Source: Acidimicrobiales bacterium
GTDB lineage: Bacteria > Actinomycetota > Acidimicrobiia > Acidimicrobiales > AC-9
Reading direction: 5' to 3'
Assembly: GCA_036270875.1 (NCBI GenBank)
Contig: DATBBR010000089.1
Location: 1 to 39,393 of the forward strand
Length of the DNA stretch: 39,393 bases
The position numbers were made by a program, and so were the translations under genes. A model generated the notes under the pieces. The model did no database searches and was not told where the DNA came from. It saw nothing but the letters and a program-made list of their open reading frames with translations. Shown in pieces: positions 22,470 through 36,836 of the stretch (the stretch's first letter is position 1; each line of letters begins with the position of its first letter).

Positions 22470-23192
22470 TCAACCCACGCCGAGATACGAGCTGGTGAGG
22501 GCGTCGCTTCTCTGGAGCTCCGCGGGCTCACCCACGAAGGCGACGGTTCCCTTCGCCATCACGTAGCACAGGTCGGCGAAGCGCAACGCGTAGGTCAGGT
22601 ACTGCTCGACCAGCACGATGGTGAGGCCCTCGGCCTTGAGTGTGGCCACGCTCTCGAAGAGCTGCTCGACGATGGTGGGAGCCAGGCCCATCGAGATCTC
22701 GTCCATCATGAGAACCCGAGGGGAGGCGAGGAATGCCCGCGACAGGGACAGCATCTGCTGCTCGCCTCCCGAGAGCGTCCCGGCCCGCTGGTCCATGCGC
22801 TCGCGCAACCGGGGGAACAGCTCGAGCACCCTCTCGATATTGCGCGACCGCTCGCCGCTCCGCAGCCCGCGGGCCGCGTTGGCGCCGATGGCGATGTTGT
22901 CGCGTACGTCGAGCCCGGGAAAGATCCCCCGCCCTTCGGGGATCAGGGTCAGCCCTCTCGTGGCGATCTCGTACGCGGAGCGGCCGCTGATGGTCCGCCC
23001 GTCGAGGCGGACGTGCCCCCGCCACACGGGGAGGGTGCCGGATATCGCTCGCAGGGTGGTCGTCTTGCCGGCGCCATTCGGTCCGAGGAGGGCGACCACC
23101 GCGCCCGGAGGCACGGCGAGGCTGACGTCGTGCAGGACCTCGACCTTGCCGTAGCCGGTGGTGACGTGGTCAAGCTCGAGCTGGGCCGGCAC
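22470..23192 (-). CDS. livF: Branched-chain amino acid-type ABC transporter ATPase, LivF
   Basis: One of two ATPases of a Liv-type importer. With the GTG at 23192 it has 240 residues, normal for LivF. Walker A is [10 protein letters not shown], followed by the LivF-typical [17 protein letters not shown], the signature [15 protein letters not shown], Walker [14 protein letters not shown] and the switch His-equivalent region [11 protein letters not shown], where the usual histidine-containing EQN/EQH segment reads EQYL. The start overlaps the C-terminal extension of LivG by 23 bases; the open frame further upstream to 23588 is a shadow of LivG. The MFS gene follows. Confidence 0.93.
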
Positions 23193-24045
23193 CGGCGCCC
23201 TCTCTGGGTTCGGACCGGCCGCGGAGGCCGAGTTCCCCGGGGTCCCCCGCCTCGGGCTCGCCTTCCTCCGGACCTCCGGCCTCGGGACCTCCGGCCTCGG
23301 CGCCGAGGTACGCCGCTCGAACGGCATCGTTGTTGGCGATCTCCTGAGGGTCGCCGACGGCGATGACCCGGCCGAAGTCGACGACGTAGATCGTCTCCGA
23401 CACCGCCATGACGAGGTCGACGTCATGCTCGATGAGCAGGATCCCGACGCCACTGTCGGCGATGTCGCCGAGCACGGACTGCAGGTGGTCGGTCTCGGTC
23501 GAGTCGAGGCCGCTGCCAGGCTCGTCGAGCAACAGGACGGCGGGTTCGGTGCACAGAGCCCGTCCAAGCTCGACCAGCCTGAGCGCACCCGTGGGCAGGT
23601 CGCCGGCCATGAGGTCGCGCACCTCGCCCAGCCCGACCTGGTCGAGGACGTCGTGCACGCGGGCCACGACCGCGGGCTCGTCCGGATGTCGCAGCTGGAA
23701 GACGCCTCGAAATGTCCTGCCTGGCCGGGCCGTCTCCGCCGCCACCTGGAGGTTCTCGAACACGGTCATCCCCGTGAAGACCTCGAGGCGCTGGAACGTA
23801 CGTCCCAGGCCGAGGCGGGCCCGGACGTGGGTCTCGAGGCGGGTGATGTCCCGGCCCGCCAGTCGCACCGTCCCCTGGTCCGGCTCGAGGAGGCCGGTCA
23901 GGCAGTTGAACACCGTGGTCTTGCCTGCACCGTTCGGTCCGATCAACGACGTGATGCTGGCCTCGGGGACGTCCAGGGTCACCTGATCGACGGCGAGCAG
24001 GCCGCCGAAGCGCTTGACGAGGTCGGTCGCCTCGAGAAGGCTCAC
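23170..24045 (-). CDS. livG: Branched-chain amino acid-type ABC transporter ATPase, LivG
   Basis: Second ATPase of the first Liv-type importer, 291 residues. Walker A is [10 protein letters not shown], then [21 protein letters not shown], Walker [14 protein letters not shown] and the switch histidine in [11 protein letters not shown]. The ABC signature is degenerate ([15 protein letters not shown]). Family members usually end near residue 255; here a low-complexity acidic Gly/Pro/Glu tail is added ([18 protein letters not shown]), coded partly by a tandem repeat at 23270-23299. The GTG start overlaps the permease stop (GTGA). The open frame further upstream, to 24468, lies over the permease gene. 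Confidence 0.92.
23270..23299 (-). repeat. 15-bp tandem repeat in the livG tail
   Basis: GGACCTCCGGCCTCG occurs twice without a mismatch (23270-23284 and 23285-23299), encoding two in-frame copies of EAGGP in the LivG C-terminal extension. The following bases toward LivF are degenerate versions of the same unit. Confidence 0.8.
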
Positions 24046-26219
24046 TCCGACCGGCCTTGCAGCACCCGTTCGGCGAACGGCGAAGGGACCAGGTCCTCTT
24101 CGCCCGCCGACCCGTTGCCGGCTCCGGGCGCGAGCACGGCGGTGCGCCCCAGCGTGGCTGACGATCGGTGCCCGTTGCCCACCGGACCCTGCGACCGGGC
24201 CGCCGGCGCAGGCAGGGCGCCAGTGGCGGCGGCGTGGGCGAACGCCTCGATCAGCCGTCGGGGCTCTCGCACCCGAGCGCTCAGCTGCATCGCCATGCCG
24301 GCCAGGGATCCACCCGGCAGGTAGCCGATGAACAGGGCCAGGAGGGCGAAGATGAGATCGGAGAAGCCGGCCTGGTGCACAAAGGTGTTGAGCATGACGA
24401 ACAGCACCGCTCCGACCACCGCGCCCGAGAGGCTGCCCACCCCCGCCACCACCACGACGAGGAACCACGTCAGGCTGGTGAACGGGTCGAAGGCGAAGGG
24501 CGTGAAGACCTGGGTCTGCTGGGCGAGCAGGGTGCCACCGATCCCGGCGATGAAGGCGCTGACGGCGAATATGAACAGCTTGTACCTGCGCAAGTCGATG
24601 CCGACTGACCGCGCCGCGGTCTCCGAGTCCCGCATGGCGGCCAGGATGCGACCGAGTCGTCCGCTGCGCAGGTTGCGGGCCAGCACGAGCATCACGACCA
24701 CCCAGAACAGCTCGAACCAGTAGAAGGCCCTGTCGCCCGCGAAGGAGAGCCCGAGCACGCTCGCACGGTGCGCCGTCAGCCCCCCCGATCCACCCGCGAA
24801 GACGTTGCTGGAGAACACGAACTGGTAGGCGAGCAGGCCGATGGCGAGGGTGGTGAGACCGAGGAAGAGGCCCCGCCGCTTGAGGGCCGGGTAGCCCGCC
24901 ACCAGCCCGAGGACGAGGGCGGCCAGCGCGCCGACCAGCATGGCCAGGATGACGGGAAGGCCGAGGGCGTTGGCCACCCGGGCGGCGACGTAGGCGCCGA
25001 TGCCGGCGAAGGCGGCCTGGCCGAGGGTGATATAGCCGCAGAAGCCGGTGATGCAGACGATCGAGGTGAAGACCACGATCAGGGCCAGCACCTCCTGGGC
25101 GTCACCGAGCCTGATGGTGTCGAGGGTCAGCGGCACCACGATTGCGATCGCGGCGGCGACGACGAGCAGCGCGGCACGAGGAGTGCTGACGCCGGCTCCC
25201 GCCGGGCGTCGGAGGCGCCCGACCGTTTGCAGCAGGAGGCCCGGTCCACCCGAGGCGCCGCCCACCTCGTCGAGCTTGCGCAGCACCAACAGGGCCACGA
25301 ACAGGATGACGACGGACAGGTTGGGCTTGAGCTGGTCGAACCCGGTGGCGACCCCGGACGGCAGCTTGAGGCCGATCACCGGCAGCGTCACGAGGTGGAA
25401 CTCGGTCAGCAGGCTGTTGACGACCCCGAGCAACAGGACGCCCGCGCCGGCCGCCATGGGGAGGCTGACCAGACGCGCGACCACCGCGATAGAGAACGTC
25501 TCGATGACGAGGAGGGTGAGGTGGAACGGGTCGAGCCCGAACTGAGGTGCCAGCAGCACCCCGGTCAGGCCCGCCAGCCCGCAGCCCAGGGCCCAGGAGA
25601 AGCCGGCCACCCGGTTGGCCGGGATGCTCGAGAGCTCCGCAAGCTCTCGCCGGTCGACGACCGCCCGGATCTCCATGCCGATCCGGGTGAAGCGGAACAG
25701 CAGCCACAGGGCGACACTGATCACCCCGACGATGACCACCACCGCCAGCTGGTCGGTGCCGATGTACAAGCCACCGCCGAGGTTGATGGACGTCGAGCTC
25801 ACGAGGGCGGGCGCCTGGCGCACGGTGCCCGTCCAGACGGCGTAGGCGAGCCCGAGCAGGCCCAGGAAGATGCCAAGGGTGGCGACCAGCTTCTCGGTCT
25901 GTCCCGCGCCGCGCCGCTCCAGGGGCCGGAACACCACGCGCTCGAGGAGCAGACCGATGCCCGGCCCGACGACTACGAGGGCGATGATCGCGGCCGGGAC
26001 CAGCGGTACGTGCCATCCGCTCGCCAGCTGCCAGAGGGAGTAGGCGACGATCATGGCCACGGCGCCGTGGGCGAAGTTGAACACGCCGGTGGCCTTGTAG
26101 GTCAGTACCACCCCCATGCCCGCGAGGGAGTAGATGCAGCCGGTGGCGATACCGGCGATGACGACTTGGAGCCAGAAGGTGATGCCTCCCGAACCCTGGC
26201 TGGCGGCCGCCAGGATCAC
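24042..26219 (-). CDS. Fused ABC permease LivH-LivM
   Basis: A single 725-residue chain with both permease halves of a Liv-type importer. Residues 1-300 are LivH-like ([35 protein letters not shown]), and from about 345 the chain is LivM-like ([38 protein letters not shown]). About 16-18 hydrophobic segments are visible. In most bacteria these are two genes. A polar tail of about 70 residues follows the last helix and ends inside the LivG start (GTGA). The GTG start lies 10 bases after the stop of the small membrane protein gene. The substrate could be a branched-chain amino acid, amide or short organic acid. Confidence 0.93.
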
Positions 26220-26229
26220 CTGCTGGTCC

Positions 26230-26895
26230 TCACCGGTCGGAGGGAACCGGATCGCACAGCCGGCACGGCTTGAGGCCCTCGCCGCGCGCGTCGTCCACGG
26301 TGATCGCCTCGACCTCGGCCTTGCCCTCGACCATGGAGCATCCGAGCCGGTGGAACGTGGTGCCTCCGGGCAGGGCGATCAGCTCGTCCGCGTCGTCGGG
26401 ACCGTAGAGATCGCGCTCGTGCTTGCCGTTGGGGTGACGAGGCGACTCTCGCTCGCCCAGGCTCACGTCGGGCGCATCGGCGCGGGCCAGGAGGACCGCA
26501 TGCAGCTGGGCGATCTGCTTCTCCAGGCGGTCGAGGCGACCGGAATCGTTGCGCAGGTCCTCGGTGCCGAGGATGACGGCGCCGATGGCGACGAGGGCGA
26601 TGCCACCGATCCCGCCCGAGATCAGGAACGGGAGCTGCTTGGCGACCAGCGCCTGACCCGAGATGCCGAACCAACCCAGGAAGATGGCCAGCAGCCCGAT
26701 ACCGGTGAGCACCCATCCGACCACGGGGCGGCTCGTCTTGCCCAGCGACCGGGCCGCCCATTTCCAGAACTGCGCCGGGTCCACCAGGTCCTCGGGCAGC
26801 GCCGGTCGACGGCTCCCGTCGGGGACAGGGCGAGGTTGGTCGGCTTCGCCTCGAGCGACGGGAGAAGCGATGGTCTGGGTGCGCTCAGCGGCCAT
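26230..26895 (-). CDS. Two-helix membrane protein with Ada-like Cys motif
   Basis: Protein of 221 residues with no confident family. A polar N-terminus (1-55) precedes two membrane helices (about 56-76 and 87-110), then a likely short coiled coil (117-138, RLDRLEKQIAQLHAVLL) and a C-terminal domain with His182, Cys186, Cys211 and Cys214 in the arrangement FHRLGC...GLKPCRLC. That pattern resembles the zinc-binding module of Ada-type DNA repair proteins and related fingers, but here sits on a membrane protein. A good AGGAGC site precedes ATG 26895. Position between the secreted protein and the Liv permease suggests co-transcription with the transporter. Function unknown. Confidence 0.72.
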   Translation of the reverse strand: MAAERTQTIASPVARGEADQPRPVPDGSRRPALPEDLVDPAQFWKWAARSLGKTSRPVVGWVLTGIGLLAIFLGWFGISGQALVAKQLPFLISGGIGGIALVAIGAVILGTEDLRNDSGRLDRLEKQIAQLHAVLLARADAPDVSLGERESPRHPNGKHERDLYGPDDADELIALPGGTTFHRLGCSMVEGKAEVEAITVDDARGEGLKPCRLCDPVPSDR

Positions 26896-26916: not shown

Positions 26917-28473
26917 TCAGCGGCCGCGGGGCAGCCGGGCGGGTATCAGCAGACGCGAGCCGAGGAAGAGACCCGCGAACGCCAGCGTGAAGGCCAGGTA
27001 GACGGCGTCGAGGCGATGGGTGACGAGGGCCTGGTCGATGATCTCGCCGATGAACCCGGAGCCGCCGGGCGTGGCGTGCGCACCGCGTCGGCCGGGCGAG
27101 GAGGTGGCCAGCGAGCCGGGAGTCGCCGGGCTGCCGGGCGTCCCCGGGAGCGCGGAGGTGCTCGAGAGGGCCGCGCCCTGGTCCGGGGATGCCAGTGCTC
27201 CCTGTGTCGCGCCGCTGGCGCCTCCGACGTCGGTCCCGCCGGTGCCGGCGCCGCCGAGGTCGGATGCCAGCTGGGCGCTGGTCGTCGCCGCCGTGCACGC
27301 GCTGGCGAGGGTGAGGTCGGTGAAGAACAGGTCACCCATGGGCACCTGCGAGGCGTCGGCCTGGAGGTGAAGGAGCAGACCGTCCGCCTCCGCCTTGCCG
27401 CATCCGGTGCCACCGATGGGCTGAGGCGGGTTGGTCGTGTCGCCCACGAGGTGAACCTGTGATCCCGACGCCTGGAGCGCGGACTGGAGGGCGCTGTTGA
27501 TGGAGTCGAGGATGGGGCCGCCCTGGGTGCTGCCTCCGACTGTGACGCCGTTCTGGTCGATCGAGGCGGGCTGACCGCCTGCGGTGACACCGTGCACGGT
27601 CACGTGGTCGACGTGCTTGTCGGTGCCGTGGTCGTTGGCCTGGTAGTCGGAGGTGGCGAGGATCGAGTCGACGTGGATCATCCCTCCGAGCAGGTCGACC
27701 CCCGCCAGACGTGTCTCGGCGTGGACGACCATGGTCGACGGATCCTTCGGTGCGAAGGACTGCTTGGTGTGGGACTCCGAAGAGCCCACCTGGGCGACGG
27801 TCCCGTCCGTCGCCGTGGGCTGGACCGAGCCGGCAGCCTGAGGACCGTGCGTGATGGCCGCCACCTGACGGCGGAAGCCCAGACTGGCGGCGGCAAGCGC
27901 CTGGCCGGCCTGGGCCGAGGAAGCCCCGCCACCTCCGGTCCCGAGGGTGTAGCCACCGTCGACGGCGTCGGTCGAGACGCCGTCGGGGTCGGCGTGGGCG
28001 GCTGCGCCGAGGGCGGCGAGACTTGCCGGCGCTCCGCCGCCCCCGAGGTTCTGAGAGGAGGCGGTGTGGGCGTCAGGGGGCGACCCGCTGGTCTGGGCCG
28101 AGAGGGGGAACGGCGGGAACCCGCAGCCGGGGGTGGCCCCGGCCGTGCACAGGAGGCCGCCGAGCCCGTTGACGGTGGCGCCAGGCCAGTAGGTGGACCC
28201 GCGGGCGAGCAGCGTGCTGTCGGAGAACTGGCTCAGACCGTCGGGGAAGCTGCTGTAGATGGGCTCTGACGTGGGGCCGATCCCAGCCTTGCCGTTTGTC
28301 TCCTGGTGGATGGCCGTCGCCGCGGCCACCCCGGAGAACACGCCCGGGCGGGCACCGCCCGAGGCGCTGTCAGCGCCCGCCACGGTGGGGCCGAGCAACG
28401 CGACCATGCCGAACAGCGCCGCCCCCCCGAGGCAGGAACGACGTACCCACCTCAGCGCTCTGGTCTCGCTCAC
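26917..28473 (-). CDS. Secreted, C-terminally anchored hypothetical protein
   Basis: A 518-residue protein with no recognised enzyme domain. It has a Sec signal peptide (RRSCLGGAALFGMVALLGP, cleavage probably in VAGADS), a long Gly/Ala/Ser-rich ectodomain with four cysteines in two pairs (CTAGATPGC; GTGCGKA and SACTAA), a Gly/Ser/Pro-rich stalk (about 425-480) and one C-terminal membrane helix (AVYLAFTLAFAGLFLGSRLLI) with a short basic tail. The central part (DSILATSDYQANDHG, HVDHVTVHGVTAGG) looks beta-rich, similar to choice-of-anchor proteins. GTG 28473 is preferred because GGGGAGAG precedes it; the frame is open to 28563. It is the first gene of the ABC operon, divergent from the binding protein. 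Confidence 0.7.
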   Translation of the reverse strand: MSETRALRWVRRSCLGGAALFGMVALLGPTVAGADSASGGARPGVFSGVAAATAIHQETNGKAGIGPTSEPIYSSFPDGLSQFSDSTLLARGSTYWPGATVNGLGGLLCTAGATPGCGFPPFPLSAQTSGSPPDAHTASSQNLGGGGAPASLAALGAAAHADPDGVSTDAVDGGYTLGTGGGGASSAQAGQALAAASLGFRRQVAAITHGPQAAGSVQPTATDGTVAQVGSSESHTKQSFAPKDPSTMVVHAETRLAGVDLLGGMIHVDSILATSDYQANDHGTDKHVDHVTVHGVTAGGQPASIDQNGVTVGGSTQGGPILDSINSALQSALQASGSQVHLVGDTTNPPQPIGGTGCGKAEADGLLLHLQADASQVPMGDLFFTDLTLASACTAATTSAQLASDLGGAGTGGTDVGGASGATQGALASPDQGAALSSTSALPGTPGSPATPGSLATSSPGRRGAHATPGGSGFIGEIIDQALVTHRLDAVYLAFTLAFAGLFLGSRLLIPARLPRGR

Positions 28474-28518
28474 GGCTTGCTCTCCCCGGCGAGGGTTGTA
28501 CCAAGGCCCCCACGGGCC

Positions 28519-28547
28519 AGGATTCGACGACCCCGACAGCGAATCCT
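28519..28547. promoter_or_regulatory. Inverted repeat in the divergent intergenic region
   Basis: AGGATTCG (28519-28526) and CGAATCCT (28540-28547) are perfect 8-bp arms around 13 bases, and pairing extends by GC/GC beyond one mismatch. A second small stem, GGCCC/GGGCC (28505-28518), lies beside it. It may be an operator between the two divergent genes or a leader hairpin for the minus-strand operon. Confidence 0.45.
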
Positions 28548-28576
28548 TGCCTGCTATGTCCACCTGTAAAGTTTTC

Positions 28577-28590: not shown

Positions 28591-28635
28591 GGTTAGTACA
28601 CTTTGTCCGTTTCACCGTTGGACGGGAGTTGGGGG

Positions 28636-30150
28636 ATGCGTCGTTCGAGACTCGCGGTGATCGGGGTGACAATCGGGGCGCTGACGCTCTCTGCGTGCGG
28701 CACGCGATTGGGCAACGCGGCGTTCCTTCAGGCCCAGCGGGGCTCGGCCAGCTCAGGCGACCTCTCGGCGGGCGATCAGGGCAGTGCCGGCGGCGCCAAC
28801 GGCTCGGGCGCTACTGCCGGAGCCCAGGGGGTCACGGCAGGAGCAGGCGGCGGAGGCTCGGCGGGAGCCGCAGGCACCGGCGGTGGGAGCGCCGGCGGCG
28901 GCGGTGGCGGTGGGGGCGCGGGTGCACCGGGGAACACGGCCAGCGACGTCGGGGTGACGCCCAACAGCATCACGATCGGCAACATCACCGCGACAGGCGG
29001 GTCCTTCGGCCCGCAGGCCTTCGGCGTGACCCAGAACGGTCTGAAGACCTGGGTCCAGTCCGTCAACGCCAAGGGCGGCATCAACGGGCGCAAGATCAAC
29101 CTGGTTACGTGTGACGACGCCGAGGACGGCTCGCAGAACCTGGCCTGCGCCACCAAGCTCGTCGAGCAGAACCACGTCTTCGCCTTCATCGCCAACAACA
29201 GCGATGCCAGCGCCCGGTCGGCCACCTACGAGTTCAGCCACAACGTCCCCGACCTCGGCTTCCCGCTCAACAACGGGTACTACAAGTACCCCAACATGTT
29301 CTCCTATCTCGGGGGCGGCGGGTATCCGCGCAATGGCAAGCAGGTGGGCAACAACGGGACGCTGGAGCAGCAGCCGTGGCAGTTCCAGTGGTTCCACCAG
29401 AACATGGGGGTCAGCAACGGCGGCTTCTGCTTCTACAGCATCGCCGTGTCCCAGCAGCAGGGCATCGCCGAGGAGAAGCAGGCCCAGGGCTCGGGCATCA
29501 ACAACACCTACGACTGCGGGGGCTCCAACTCGGGGGCCAACCCCGCAGCGCCCACGTTCGACACCGACGCCGTGAACATGAAGTCCAAGGGCGTGGACGG
29601 TGTCTGGGACGCGCTCGACACCAACGCCAACGCCAAGCTGTGCCAGGCCTTCGACCGCAACCAGTTCCACCCCAAGGCCAAGGTCTCCACGATCGAGGCA
29701 TGGGGCCAGCTGGTCGGCACCTGGAGCGCCCCGTGCCGCAACTCGGTCTTCGTCACCGGCACCGAGGACTCGTACAACGACACGGCCAACCCGGCCGTGG
29801 CCCAGTTCCGTCACGACTTCGACGCCTACTGCAAGGGCTGCCCGCTGCACGAGTGGAGCGTCGACGGCTACGGGACCGGGCAGATGTTCGGCGATGCGCT
29901 CACCGCAATGGGTGGGGCGCCGACCAGGGCCGGCTTCGAGGCCTGGATGAACGGCCTCAACAACTACAGCAACCATGGGCTGTGGGCGCCCTTGGACTAC
30001 CACACCTACGACTTCAGCAAGCCGCACCAGCAGTGCTACATCATCGCCCAGTGGCAGGACTCGGCCAATGGCTTCGTCACGCGGGCGCCGCTCAGCACCT
30101 GCGGCGACTTCGGCTGGATCGGCTATCCCGCCAGCGACGACGGGTCCTGA
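28636..30150 (+). CDS. ABC transporter substrate-binding lipoprotein (Liv/Leu-Ile-Val type)
   Basis: Extracytoplasmic receptor of 504 residues. The lipobox is LSAC with Cys21. A long Gly/Ala/Ser-rich linker (about 35-108, including a run of glycines) tethers the folded domain, which begins at VTPNSITIGNITATGG and shows the type I periplasmic-binding pattern VNAKGGINGRKINLVTCDD. Several cysteines occur in the second half. ATG 28636 follows GGGAGTTGGGGG; a GTG at 28603 is in frame but has no signal-like start. The gene is divergent from the ABC operon 24042-28473 and probably serves it. The family covers amino acids, amides, short organic acids and aromatics. Confidence 0.88.
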   Translation: MRRSRLAVIGVTIGALTLSACGTRLGNAAFLQAQRGSASSGDLSAGDQGSAGGANGSGATAGAQGVTAGAGGGGSAGAAGTGGGSAGGGGGGGGAGAPGNTASDVGVTPNSITIGNITATGGSFGPQAFGVTQNGLKTWVQSVNAKGGINGRKINLVTCDDAEDGSQNLACATKLVEQNHVFAFIANNSDASARSATYEFSHNVPDLGFPLNNGYYKYPNMFSYLGGGGYPRNGKQVGNNGTLEQQPWQFQWFHQNMGVSNGGFCFYSIAVSQQQGIAEEKQAQGSGINNTYDCGGSNSGANPAAPTFDTDAVNMKSKGVDGVWDALDTNANAKLCQAFDRNQFHPKAKVSTIEAWGQLVGTWSAPCRNSVFVTGTEDSYNDTANPAVAQFRHDFDAYCKGCPLHEWSVDGYGTGQMFGDALTAMGGAPTRAGFEAWMNGLNNYSNHGLWAPLDYHTYDFSKPHQQCYIIAQWQDSANGFVTRAPLSTCGDFGWIGYPASDDGS

Positions 30151-31955: not shown

Positions 31956-32705
31956 TCAGCGGGCCGGGGTGCCCGGCAGCAGGTGCTCGATCACATCACC
32001 GAGCTCGCTGACCGGCCCGGCGTGCATGACTTGGCCCTGGTTGAGGAGCACGGCGCGATCGGAGATCTGGAGCGCTCGCCCCACGTGCTGTTCGACGATG
32101 AGCAGTGTGGTGCCGGCCCGATGGATGTCACCCAGGATGCGGAAGACATCGTCGAGCACGATCGGAGCCAGCCCGAGCGACAGCTCGTCGACCACGAGAA
32201 GCCGAGGCGGGTTGGCCAGCACCTTGGCCAGCGACAGGATGCGCTGCTCGCCCCCCGAGAGGGTGCCCGCGCTCTGGTCGCGGCGCTCGCCCAGGCGGGG
32301 GAAGGCACCATAGGCGCGATCCAGCGCCTGGCGCATGTGCTTGCGGCCGAGGGCCTGGCGGAACGTCAGGACCAGGTTCTCCTCGACCGTGAGTGACGCG
32401 AACACCGAACGACCCTCGGGCGCGTGGGCGATGCCCATGCGGGCCAGCCGCCAGGCCGGAAGTCCCGTCACGTCCTGGCTGGCGTAGCGGAGATGGCCTG
32501 ACGTGACCGGGACGAGGCCGGTGCAGATCCGGGCGATGGTCGACTTGCCGGATCCGTTGGGCCCGAGCAGCGCCGTGGCCGAGCCTTCAGGCAACGAGAA
32601 GGACACGTCGAAGATGGCCCGGAAGGGCCCGTACGCCGAAGACACCCGGTCGAGCTCGAGCAGCGCACCGCCGGCTGCGCCCGATCCGTTGCCGAGGCTG
32701 GTCAC
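31956..32705 (-). CDS. livF: Second Liv-type ABC ATPase, LivF
   Basis: ATPase of 249 residues in a second importer. Walker A is GPNGSGKSTI, followed by HAPEGRSVFASLTVEENL, the ABC signature LSGGEQRILSLAKVL, Walker B LLVVDELSLGLAP and switch histidine in LLIVEQHVGRAL. The GTG at 32705 overlaps the LivG stop (GTGA); further upstream the open frame is a shadow. An N-terminal Gly/Ala-rich stretch of about 15 residues precedes the family start. It is the last gene of the operon 36836-31956. It is clearly divergent from the livF at 22470, so the two systems are not a recent duplication. Confidence 0.93.
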   Translation of the reverse strand: MTSLGNGSGAAGGALLELDRVSSAYGPFRAIFDVSFSLPEGSATALLGPNGSGKSTIARICTGLVPVTSGHLRYASQDVTGLPAWRLARMGIAHAPEGRSVFASLTVEENLVLTFRQALGRKHMRQALDRAYGAFPRLGERRDQSAGTLSGGEQRILSLAKVLANPPRLLVVDELSLGLAPIVLDDVFRILGDIHRAGTTLLIVEQHVGRALQISDRAVLLNQGQVMHAGPVSELGDVIEHLLPGTPAR

Positions 32706-33460
32706 ACCGCCTCCCCCAGGTAGGCACGCCGCACCTTCGCATCGCCCATGACGGCGGCGGTGGGCCCGTCGGCGATCAGCTGACCCAGGTCGAGCACGCA
32801 CAGGCGGCTGGCGACGCGCTGGACCATCTCGAGGTCATGCTCGACGAGGAGGATGGCCGTGTCCCGCTCCTGTGACAGCCGGCCGAGGACTCGCGCCAGA
32901 GCCAGCGACTCCATGCGGTCGAGCCCCGAGGACGGCTCGTCGAGGAGCAGTAGCCGGGGTTCGGTGACCAGCGCCCGGCCCAGCTCGACCAGCCGCCCGT
33001 GACCGAGGCTCAGCGCCTCCACGGGGAGGTCGGCCACGTCCTCGATCCCCAGGAGGCTGAGGACGGCGTCGGCCCGGACGCGCTCGTCGGTGGTCGGGGC
33101 GCCCTGGTTGAGGAGGTCCTTCCAGAGGGCCCCGCCACCCCGCCGGGCGCGCTCGGCCACGAGCAGGTGGTCGCGCGCCGACATCTCGGTGAACAGCTCG
33201 ATGCGCTGGAAGGTGCGGCCGATGCCGAGCCGCGCCCGCCGGTAGATGGGCATGCGGCTGAGGCCGTGGCCGTCGAAGGTGACCGTGCCGGTGTCGGGGC
33301 GGAGGATGCCGAGCAGGCAGTTGAACAGGGTCGTCTTGCCCGCCCCGTTCGGCCCGACCAGGCCGACCGCCTCACCAGTCTCGACTCCGAGCGACAGCTC
33401 GTACAGCGCGACGACGCCACCGAAGCGTTTGGAGATGCCGGTCGCCTCGAGCAGGGCCAT
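32702..33460 (-). CDS. livG: Second Liv-type ABC ATPase, LivG
   Basis: ATPase of 252 residues. Walker A is [10 protein letters not shown], then GIGRTFQRIELFTEMSARDHL, a signature [15 protein letters not shown], Walker B LLLLDEPSSGLD and switch histidine in LLVEHDLEMVQ. It lacks the long acidic tail of the LivG at 23170. ATG 33460 (MALLEATG) is preferred; the longer opening to 33568 overlaps the permease. Only one base separates it from the permease stop, and its own stop overlaps LivF. Confidence 0.93.
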   Translation of the reverse strand: MALLEATGISKRFGGVVALYELSLGVETGEAVGLVGPNGAGKTTLFNCLLGILRPDTGTVTFDGHGLSRMPIYRRARLGIGRTFQRIELFTEMSARDHLLVAERARRGGGALWKDLLNQGAPTTDERVRADAVLSLLGIEDVADLPVEALSLGHGRLVELGRALVTEPRLLLLDEPSSGLDRMESLALARVLGRLSQERDTAILLVEHDLEMVQRVASRLCVLDLGQLIADGPTAAVMGDAKVRRAYLGEAV

Positions 33461-33461
33461 C

Positions 33462-35501
33462 TCAGGATCCGCCCCGCGGTCGGGAGCCGGCAACGTCGGG
33501 CTCCACTTTGCCGTCGTCCCCGAGCTCCCGGGTGGGGACGTCGGGTGCGGCCAGCGTGCGCCGGTCAAAGGAAGCCGTGGTGGGCTCCCGACCCGCCCGG
33601 CGGTCCAGCCACGCGGAGATGCGCAACAGGGACCGGCGCTTGTTGTACTCGACGGCGCCCTCCGGGTGCCGGGCGTAGGTGAGGGCGCCGATCCCGAACA
33701 GGAAGAAGGCCAGCACCGTGAACCGGCTCCCGAGGTTGCCCAAGAGCTCGGGCACGACGACGAAGGCGATGCCGGCGTTGACCGCTCCTTCCACCGTCCG
33801 GACGCCGGTCGTGAGCACGAGCACGACGAACAGGAGCGAGAAGAAGGCGTTGTAGTCGCCCGCCGAGGTCGTGCCCTGGAGGGATCCGAACATCGCGCCG
33901 CCCACGCCGGCGATGCCCGCCGACAGGGCGAAGATGGTGATCTTGGCCCGCACCGGGTTGATCCCGATCGTCTCGGCTGCCACCTCGCTGCCCCGGAGGG
34001 CGGCGAGGTACCGGCCGATGGTGCCCTTTCGCACCAGGATCACGATCACCGCGCAGATGGCGAACACCGCCATGGCCAGCAGGAAGAAGGCCCGGTTGCC
34101 GCTGAAGCCGCCGGGCCTGGGCACGCTCACCCCGGTGTCGCCGTTGCCCAACCAGCTCTGGGGGAAGAGGACGTTGCTGGCCAGGAGCGCGAAGGCCAAG
34201 GTGGCCAGGGCCAGGTAGAGGCCCCTGAGACGCAACGTGGGGATGGCCACCAGTGCGCCCGCCGCGCCCGCCACTACTCCTCCGATGATCATGCCGACGA
34301 TGAAGTTGATGTTGAACTGGGTGGCCAGCTGGCCGGCGGTGAACGCGCCAATGCCGGCGAAGCTGGCCTGGCACAGGGATATCTGCCCGCTCATGCCGGT
34401 GAGGGCGGTGATGGACAGGAAGATGGTGGCGTAGACGATGCCCTGGGTGAGCAGGAACAGCCAGTGGGTTGGGACGAGGAACAGCGAGACCACCATGTAG
34501 ACGACGATGAAGACCGGGAAGATGATCTTGGTCAGCCGGTCGAGGGTCGCGCCTCGCAAGGAGGCGGCCAGGGCCGGCGGAGGCGGGTCACAGCCCGCCA
34601 GGGGGTCGGCGGCCTCACGGCGTCGCCGTACCGGCGGCCAGAACAGCAGGAGGAGGACGAGCACCACAAATGGGAACGAGGGCCGCAGCCCGGTGGCGAG
34701 GATGCTGTTCAGCGGCAGGTACCCCGTCAGTACCTGCTGGAAGATCCCCAGCAGGAGGCCGCCCGCCAGGGCGAGAGGCAGGCTGGCCAACCCCGCGAAC
34801 ACCGCCGCGGCGATGGCTGCGACCAGCAGGGAGATGAAGTTGAGCGGGTCGACGTTGGCGTAGTACGGGGCCAGCAGGACGCCGGCCAGGGCGGCGAGGA
34901 AGCTGGAGAGCATCCAGGCGAAGGAGCTGATCCTGCTCGAATTGATGCCCGCCAGCTCCACCATGCGGGGGCTCTCGACGACCGCTCGCATCTTGAGGCC
35001 CAGGGCGGTGAACTTGAACAGCAGGCCCAGGGCCGCCATCACCACGAGCACGGCGACGATGACGACCAGCTGGTTGCCGTCGATGTGGTAGCTACCGAAG
35101 TGGTAGACGGCGTTCGGCTTCGGGGAGAGGCTGGGCGGGTTCTGGTGCTGGCCGGGCCAGAAGAACTGCACGATCGAGGGCACGCCGATCAGCAGGCCGA
35201 GCCCGGAGATGAGCTTCACCACGGTGGGGGCGGTGCGCATGTGCCGGAACAAGAAGCGGTCCAGCAGGTACCCCAGCGCCGGTCCGGCCACGACCACTGC
35301 GAGCACGAAGCCCGCCCACTTGGACCAGTGGTGCTGGGACACCGCAGCGTAGAAGATCGCCGCCGACACGTAGGCCTGGGCCGCGAAGGCCAGGTTGAAC
35401 ACGCCCGAGGTCTTGTAGGTGAGGACCAACCCCACCGCCACGAGCGCGTAGACGAAGCCGAACGGGATGCCCGGTATGGCGAAGGACAGGAAGTGCGTCA
35501 A
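33462..35501 (-). CDS. Second fused ABC permease LivH-LivM
   Basis: Permease fusion of 679 residues. Residues 1-290 are LivH-like (GFVYALVAVGLVLTYKTSG), with GVFNLAFAAQAYVSA where most relatives read NFAHG. The second half, from about residue 320, is LivM-like (GMSGQISLCQASFAGIGAF, PTLRLRGLYLALATLAFA). A polar tail of about 50 residues follows the last helix. The start is a TTG at 35501, chosen because nothing upstream fits: the binding-protein stop is 6 bases away. It shares the fusion with the permease at 24042 but has low identity by eye. Confidence 0.92.
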   Translation of the reverse strand: MTHFLSFAIPGIPFGFVYALVAVGLVLTYKTSGVFNLAFAAQAYVSAAIFYAAVSQHHWSKWAGFVLAVVVAGPALGYLLDRFLFRHMRTAPTVVKLISGLGLLIGVPSIVQFFWPGQHQNPPSLSPKPNAVYHFGSYHIDGNQLVVIVAVLVVMAALGLLFKFTALGLKMRAVVESPRMVELAGINSSRISSFAWMLSSFLAALAGVLLAPYYANVDPLNFISLLVAAIAAAVFAGLASLPLALAGGLLLGIFQQVLTGYLPLNSILATGLRPSFPFVVLVLLLLFWPPVRRRREAADPLAGCDPPPPALAASLRGATLDRLTKIIFPVFIVVYMVVSLFLVPTHWLFLLTQGIVYATIFLSITALTGMSGQISLCQASFAGIGAFTAGQLATQFNINFIVGMIIGGVVAGAAGALVAIPTLRLRGLYLALATLAFALLASNVLFPQSWLGNGDTGVSVPRPGGFSGNRAFFLLAMAVFAICAVIVILVRKGTIGRYLAALRGSEVAAETIGINPVRAKITIFALSAGIAGVGGAMFGSLQGTTSAGDYNAFFSLLFVVLVLTTGVRTVEGAVNAGIAFVVVPELLGNLGSRFTVLAFFLFGIGALTYARHPEGAVEYNKRRSLLRISAWLDRRAGREPTTASFDRRTLAAPDVPTRELGDDGKVEPDVAGSRPRGGS

Positions 35502-35507
35502 GCCGGG

Positions 35508-36836
35508 TCAGCTGGTCTTGGGCGTCGGTTGGGTCGAGTTGAAGAACGTGGTCGGATCGTTCGGGAACGGGACCGGGTTCATGGTGGTGGCGTTGGGCGC
35601 CTGGAAGCAGACGAAGGGGTTCTTGCCGCTCCCGAACACAGAGGTGAAGTGGCCCTGCTGGACCTGGAGGAAGGCGTTGCAGTCGATTGGCCCGCTGCTG
35701 GTGTGCTGCACCGTCCAGTCGATCCCCGGTGAGATGCCGCCCGCCGTGTAGTGGGTCATCTTGTTGATCGTGTTGACGACGTTCTGGCGGGTCACGTTGG
35801 GGCCCACCTGGCGCAGCGCGGTGACGAACAGGTCGGCGTTGATCCAGCCGGCCAGGGTGACGTCGCTGACCGGCGCACCAGCCTTCGCCATGGCGTCGAG
35901 GTAGTTGTCCATCCCCTGGGTGAACCCGTGGGCGTAGGGGACGAAGCCGGTCTGGAAGTAGACGCCCTCCATGAGCGGTGCGAACTGGTTGAGCACGCTC
36001 TGGTCGTAGCCGTTGGGCCAGTACTGCTTGACCTGGTTGTAGAGGCCAGCCTCCTGGAGGCCCTTGCTGAGCACGGTGTTGCCGGTCGGGTCCATGCAGG
36101 TGCCGACGAACTGGGCCCCGCTGTTCTTGAGCTGGGTGATGTCGCCGCTGATGTCGGTGAAGCCGAACGGGAGGCTGGTGTCCTTGAGCACCACCTGCTG
36201 ACCGGTCTGGGGGGCGAACTTCTGGAAGGTGTTGATCGTGCCGGTGGCGCAGTCGGCCGATTGGGAGACGGTGTAGGCGATAACGCCGACCTTCTGGGCG
36301 CCGACCCGGTTGGCCAGGTATGCGACCAGGGGCCCCTGGTGGGTGAAGTTGAGGAAGGAGCCCTTGTCGCCGAACAGGCTGGGGCCCGCGGACCACTCGG
36401 GGTTGACGTTCCAGCCGAAGGTGGGGACGTTGTTCTGCGCCAGGTACTTGCCGCCCGGGAACTGTGGCGTGGCCACGCCCACGACGGCGAACACGTTGTC
36501 CTGGGTGACCAGCGCCCGGGCCTGTGAGACGTCGAGCGAGGGCAGGGTCTGGTCGTCGAGCTGGGCGACGTACTTGATCTTGCGCCCGTTCACCCCGCCG
36601 GACGCGTTGACCTGGTCGAGGTAGGCCTGCACGCCCTGGAAGATCGGTCCGTACTGGTTGGCCAGGGGCCCGGTCTTGGCGGCGATGCCGCCGATGTCGA
36701 TCTCGTTGGACGTCACCCCCTGCGTCTGACTGCCGCCGCCGCCTCCGCCCGAGGCGTTGCCGCAGGCAACCAGTATCAGGCTGAGGACGGCAGGAAGGGC
36801 GACGAGGCGGAAGGCCCTGGTGGCCAGACGGGGCAT
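35508..36836 (-). CDS. Second Liv-type substrate-binding lipoprotein, LivK-like
   Basis: Receptor of 442 residues. The lipobox LVAC has Cys25, followed by a short Gly-rich linker. The type I periplasmic-binding fold begins with VTSNEIDIGGIAAKTGPLANQYGP and continues with VNASGGVNGRKIKYVAQLDD, then ALVTQDNVFAVVGV. The C-terminal region has three cysteines. ATG 36836 has a strong GGAGGT ribosome-binding site. It is the first gene of a complete binding protein-permease-LivG-LivF operon and divergent from the acyl-CoA synthetase gene. The substrate cannot be named, but the neighbour suggests an organic acid that is activated with CoA. Confidence 0.92.
   Translation of the reverse strand: MPRLATRAFRLVALPAVLSLILVACGNASGGGGGGSQTQGVTSNEIDIGGIAAKTGPLANQYGPIFQGVQAYLDQVNASGGVNGRKIKYVAQLDDQTLPSLDVSQARALVTQDNVFAVVGVATPQFPGGKYLAQNNVPTFGWNVNPEWSAGPSLFGDKGSFLNFTHQGPLVAYLANRVGAQKVGVIAYTVSQSADCATGTINTFQKFAPQTGQQVVLKDTSLPFGFTDISGDITQLKNSGAQFVGTCMDPTGNTVLSKGLQEAGLYNQVKQYWPNGYDQSVLNQFAPLMEGVYFQTGFVPYAHGFTQGMDNYLDAMAKAGAPVSDVTLAGWINADLFVTALRQVGPNVTRQNVVNTINKMTHYTAGGISPGIDWTVQHTSSGPIDCNAFLQVQQGHFTSVFGSGKNPFVCFQAPNATTMNPVPFPNDPTTFFNSTQPTPKTS

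Follow-up and report, generated by a model that had tools for sequence, protein, structure and literature searches.

What does a small membrane protein ending in a finger that resembles the zinc module of Ada do within an operon for a Liv-type ABC importer? The question is raised by a 39,393-nucleotide stretch of DNA from an Acidimicrobiales bacterium (contig DATBBR010000089.1; hereafter the window), in which a minus-strand run encodes, in order, a surface protein, the hairpin-finger protein studied here, a fused LivHM permease, LivG, LivF and an MFS transporter. The genes at issue are as follows.

22470–23230, minus strand: LivF ATPase, start approximate (open frame to 23588); ABC_tran match.
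23170–24063, minus strand: LivG ATPase, start approximate (open frame to 24468); ABC_tran and BCA_ABC_TP_C matches.
24042–26219, minus strand: fused LivH–LivM permease, 725 aa; BPD_transp_2, E 5e-58.
26230–26895, minus strand: hairpin-finger protein, 221 aa; supported by the ORF, homologues in relatives and dN/dS.
26917–28563, minus strand: surface protein with an N-terminal signal-like segment and a C-terminal transmembrane (TM) segment, supported by homologues and the NCBIfam model choice_anch_P; by homologue comparison, a start at 28473 is likelier than one at 28563.
28603–30150, plus strand: LivK-type substrate-binding lipoprotein, divergent from the minus-strand run; Peripla_BP_6, E 3e-39.

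A preliminary description, made from the sequence, had placed the gene between a secreted protein and a Liv permease. This was borne out: on the minus strand the gene starts 21 bp past the end of the surface-protein gene, and 10 bp separate its end from the fused LivHM gene. The ORF is real, and it carries His182, Cys186, Cys211 and Cys214 exactly as described. It is more than a chance ORF, because dN/dS was 0.25 and 0.30 against two orthologues of the same genus; a chance origin was ruled out on values of 0.25–0.33, although this DNA is rich in G+C and its antisense frame is open as well. A second Liv system (LivF, LivG, LivHM and a LivK-like protein; window positions 31956–36836) adjoins the first and has no hairpin-finger gene.

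The protein consists of a basic N-terminus, a two-helix membrane hairpin, a helix, a disordered linker and the C-terminal finger, of which three parts can be assigned to the minus strand of the window.

26566–26730, minus strand: membrane hairpin, residues ~56–110; alignment, AF2 model and charge analysis.
26485–26565, minus strand: helix continuing TM2, residues ~111–137, a possible coiled coil; AF2 model.
26248–26385, minus strand: Ada-like finger, residues 171–216, with predicted ligands H182, C186, C211 and C214; models, fold match and masked profile.

An AF2 model of the full-length protein, built on 14 sequences, placed helices at residues 40–50, 56–79 and 88–137, with low confidence at 145–168. 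Overall scores were pLDDT 66.4 and pTM 0.28, with a hairpin of low confidence, and the finger (~171–216) reached pLDDT 87–89. When a 29-row alignment was examined, the invariant columns outside the finger (G67, G77, Q87, P89, S93, G98 and G105) all fell within the hairpin. Lysine and arginine residues averaged 3.1 in the stretch of 15 residues that precedes TM1 and 3.0 in the 15 that follow TM2, against 0.65 in the loop. The flanks were the more basic side of the hairpin in 82 of 84 ORFs, and this charge bias therefore predicts that both termini, and hence the finger, lie on the cytoplasmic side. Weak Pfam and NCBIfam matches of the hairpin to antiporters, holins and TctB were scattered over the members and were taken as chance.

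We next turned to the finger, for which the preliminary description had proposed a likeness to Ada. A model of the finger alone (56 aa) had pLDDT 83.6 and pTM 0.65. Searched against the PDB with Foldseek, it gave 13 matches led by the Ada structures 1wpk (probability 0.85, E 0.08) and 1zgw (probability 0.44); the remaining 11 had probabilities of 0.05 or less. VIA-align returned Z of at least 2 for 4 of 30 chains, and all four were Ada; the best, 1u8b, reached Z 4.7 (54 residues aligned, 3.1 Å), modest scores for a predicted model. Such scores are unremarkable alone; the weight lies in the lack of competing unrelated chains. The whole-model search yielded only common helical matches among those listed and no Ada chain, because hairpin matches filled the list. 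The likeness also appears at the level of profiles: although the window protein had no PF02805 match up to E 10 and falls short of the Pfam cutoff, 22 of 53 family fingers matched the Ada_Zn_binding profile at E ≤ 0.1 (best 4.4e-4). The predicted fold matches that of the Ada N-terminal zinc domain (PF02805; 1adn, 1u8b, 1zgw and 1wpk), and the two share the ligand spacing x-x3-C ... C-x2-C and a C-terminal GxxPCxxCxP block. The C-terminal half of DUF6233 (PF19746) was matched by 40 of the 53 fingers at E ≤ 0.1, and the window protein stays below its cutoff of 27.6 (13.7 bits for the full length, 17.0 for the finger alone); this domain explains nothing about the family, since it is itself without known function.

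The family finger also differs from that of Ada. At residue 38, Ada has a zinc-ligand cysteine, which we take to be its methyl acceptor, and the family finger has histidine there (in an alignment to 1adn that is not significant by itself, E 0.27). According to excerpts of PMC4999995, four cysteines of Ada are chelating and one of them accepts the methyl group. No Pfam match to a helix–turn–helix (HTH) or methyltransferase domain was found in the window protein. Together with the histidine at the Cys38 position, this led us to reject a role in DNA repair and agrees with the earlier suggestion of a function other than repair. From sequence and models, the domain is best described as an Ada-like, predicted structural finger.

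Could the finger nevertheless read nucleic acid, as a membrane-tethered regulator that links the state of the transporter to operon expression by binding DNA or RNA close to the membrane? The Ada finger contacts DNA, and the fold match to Ada makes the idea natural, as does the frequency of arginine or lysine beside the ligands (arginine follows the histidine in 38 of 53 fingers). However, the family finger is far less basic than that of Ada: its core has a net charge of −2 in the window protein and a mean of +1.0 over the 53 fingers, whereas four Ada fingers range from +6 to +8, which argues against DNA binding. With no HTH domain found in the window protein, a lone 45-residue finger on a hairpin would also be an unusual reader of DNA, and we regard such a regulator as improbable.

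To assess the ligands without circularity, we masked the four ligand columns of a finger profile and ran it on 82 homologous ORFs; the A1 and A4 rows had been picked by their H/C motif, so that ligand invariance there reflects selection, which the masked profile avoids. It found the finger in 62 of the 82 ORFs, all 62 with the four ligands including the histidine, and the domain was absent from the other 20. The finger is either complete or wholly lost, as expected for a metal site, and the putative zinc site is, judged from these sequences, most likely structural. A predicted cytoplasmic Cys3His site with such constant ligands could also act as a metal or redox sensor, losing zinc on oxidation or zinc starvation and so switching the importer off. 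Excerpts of PMC4999995 describe zinc-coordinating cysteines that are reactive, in Ada as well as in other fingers. This sensor reading seems unlikely to us, given that the gene neighbourhood holds no pointer to zinc or redox and that 20 of 82 homologues work without a finger.

We then asked how the gene is distributed. Homologues occurred in 21 of 59 related genomes, and a scan of the phylum matched 69 of 396 genomes, a count that includes finger-only and Ada-type matches; the homologues are spread over many families of Actinomycetota. For neighbourhood analysis we took stretches of DNA (L numbers below) comprising 40 from relatives, 40 from higher-scoring rows of the phylum scan and 14 named loci, all from Actinomycetota metagenome-assembled genomes (MAGs), mostly Acidimicrobiia where a class was named, with one Frankiaceae MAG. 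This sample left out 14 relative rows on other contigs, at least 6 of which have a LivHM match on the same contig, and lower-scoring phylum rows with a hairpin. No homologous ORF was detected by the script in L057 or L071, which contribute nothing to the linkage count. With permeases called at E ≤ 1e-8 and duplicates still in, one accompanied 36 of 41 ORFs (window included), 13 of 14 and 40 of 43, with all positives no more than 5 kb away.

After removal of duplicates, 83 of 92 homologues had a Liv-type permease gene, each within 5 kb, compared with 3 of 40 random 16-kb stretches drawn from contigs that bear a homologue; two of these three (L174 and L175) overlap or abut a homologue locus. Co-occurrence with the transporter, on which the preliminary description had staked its proposal, is therefore strong. 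All nine homologues without a permease (L040, L050, L051, L055, L058, L084, L117, L132 and L152) either sit on a contig shorter than 5 kb or have a contig end no more than 0.5 kb away, and a LivF-like gene is nevertheless present in L117 and L152. Genomes with the gene had a median of at least 15 Liv permease matches (21 genomes) versus at least 4 in those without it (38 genomes), both counts being lower bounds because scoring stopped at 18 candidates in some genomes. One genus supplied three genomes of 9–10 Mb, each with 6 to 9 permease rows, and in these the hairpin-finger gene immediately precedes a LivHM gene. Distances between hairpins correlated with those between neighbouring LivH sequences (Spearman 0.42 over 71 pairs; none of 2,000 permutations was as high), and nearest neighbours agreed in 26 of 71 pairs; shared descent contributes to this correlation.

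Which part of the protein carries the link? The hairpin is common to all homologues of the family, and the existence of fingerless members makes the finger dispensable. A permease was in the stretch for 18 of 20 fingerless homologues, so the Liv link follows the hairpin and not the finger, a point that goes beyond the preliminary description. Conversely, Liv markers appeared in only one (L208) of 20 stretches with a finger but no hairpin, a contrast that is weaker than it appears because these stretches (4.4 to 6.7 kb) are shorter than those of the family. L208 has a short ORF that resembles a broken member of the hairpin-finger family. Taken together, these counts make the hairpin, rather than the finger, the mark of the transporter. 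Tandem hairpin genes lie beside a Liv operon in L065 (8344–9131), L069 (7350–8080) and L124 (1153–2118); both copies are fingerless in L065 and L069, and one of two in L124.

The adjacent secreted protein proved to be a recurrent partner, which the preliminary description had likewise not foreseen. In 44 of 92 loci the gene immediately 5′ of the hairpin gene, often overlapping it by 4 bases, codes for a single-pass surface protein. These proteins form one homologous family and have a C-terminal TM segment and, where the sequence is complete, an N-terminal hydrophobic segment. Within the family, the near (15) and distant (28) groups are homologous (hhalign probability 99.9, E 4.6e-34). The surface protein of the window scores 26.1 bits against the choice-of-anchor P model (NF040603), just below the 27-bit cutoff, and its relative in L042 scores 38.8; 6 of 10 relatives scanned had no match to this model at E ≤ 0.01. 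A cysteine, often as Cys-Pro, is present in the short tail that follows the C-terminal TM segment of 13 of 43 partners (L042, L044, L053, L059–L061, L117, L119–L123 and L128). A link between this cytoplasmic tail and the finger was dropped because L060 has the tail and its hairpin partner is fingerless. At three loci without a surface protein (L039, L043 and L141), the gene adjoining the finger gene looks to us like DUF1015.

Where both the surface protein and a permease are present (n = 40), finger gene and permease share a strand in 40 loci and are opposed in none; without the surface protein, they share a strand in 22 and are opposed in 21. These 21 homologues are therefore outside the permease operon, and proximity is kept even where no shared transcript is possible. 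The same 21 loci would suit a gene with some other membrane function that travels with Liv gene cassettes spreading together, and so would another kind of two-TM protein that ends in an Ada-like finger, encoded after a divIVA-like gene in L205 (2285–3136) and L207 (2870–3298), in what we take from gene names recognised in the sequence to be sepF–divIVA clusters. Hairpin-plus-finger proteins are therefore not confined to transporters, and a protein of this kind may also serve cell division or polar growth. Because the linkage persists across many families of the phylum and across differing gene orders and orientations, we give mere hitch-hiking a small chance.

Similar fingers were also seen at the ends of secreted- or membrane-looking proteins (L196, L199, L200, L202, L211 and L212), which we take to be metallo-beta-lactamase-fold, SLH-repeat, staphylococcal-nuclease-like and repeat proteins, and the family profile retrieves phylum proteins with an Ada-type C-RPSC finger (L203, L204, L214 and L215). 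The Ada-like finger seems to be a portable module.

Steady proximity across gene orders, association through the hairpin alone and the surface partner lead us to propose that the protein is an accessory membrane subunit serving some of the Liv/HAAT ABC importers of Actinomycetota, a reading we hold with slightly better than even confidence and in which the association itself is what we infer. Counting against a subunit role, most Liv systems lack the gene: LivHM matches occurred in 58 of the 59 relatives versus 21 of 59 for the hairpin-finger gene. In such a subunit the hairpin, with its conserved glycines and a Gln-x-Pro at the entry of TM2, would pack against LivHM and, where present, against the TM segment of the surface protein. 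The TM2 helix would run on into the cytoplasm, and the flexible linker would leave the zinc finger, on the cytoplasmic side, free to dock on a protein partner, with LivG/LivF or a second copy of the same protein the likeliest, so as to hold the complex together or tune it. On the outer side, the surface protein might, for instance, scaffold LivK or substrate. Linkage is not the same as interaction, and we infer both the docking on LivHM and the partner of the finger. The proposal is compatible with either the sensor or the assembly-factor role suggested in the preliminary description. A bolder version, in which surface anchor and hairpin-finger protein form a phylum-wide two-protein transmembrane accessory complex on Liv importers and the Ada-related finger, lacking the reactive cysteine, responds to the surface partner by reporting or setting the state of the cytoplasmic ATPases, is conceivable but rather doubtful.

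This accessory protein appears to be undescribed. No Pfam or NCBIfam model covers it at its cutoff, a search of a plasmid collection gave no match, and literature searches on the module, choice-of-anchor P and Liv accessory proteins, judged from their listings, returned no description. If the proposal is true, a conserved extra subunit linked to many Actinomycetota Liv systems would alter the annotation of these importers and offer a way to probe by experiment why they are so numerous in some of these genomes. It would also be a case of the Ada zinc domain put to use on a membrane protein for a purpose other than repair.

Accessory proteins are familiar from ABC importers in general. Liv/HAAT importers are generally portrayed as having five parts, and the hairpin-finger protein is presumably none of these usual subunits. 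Unlike Ada, it has neither an AraC-type HTH nor a methyltransferase domain and carries its finger on a membrane hairpin, and the window encodes it beside all the parts of a LivKHMGF importer.
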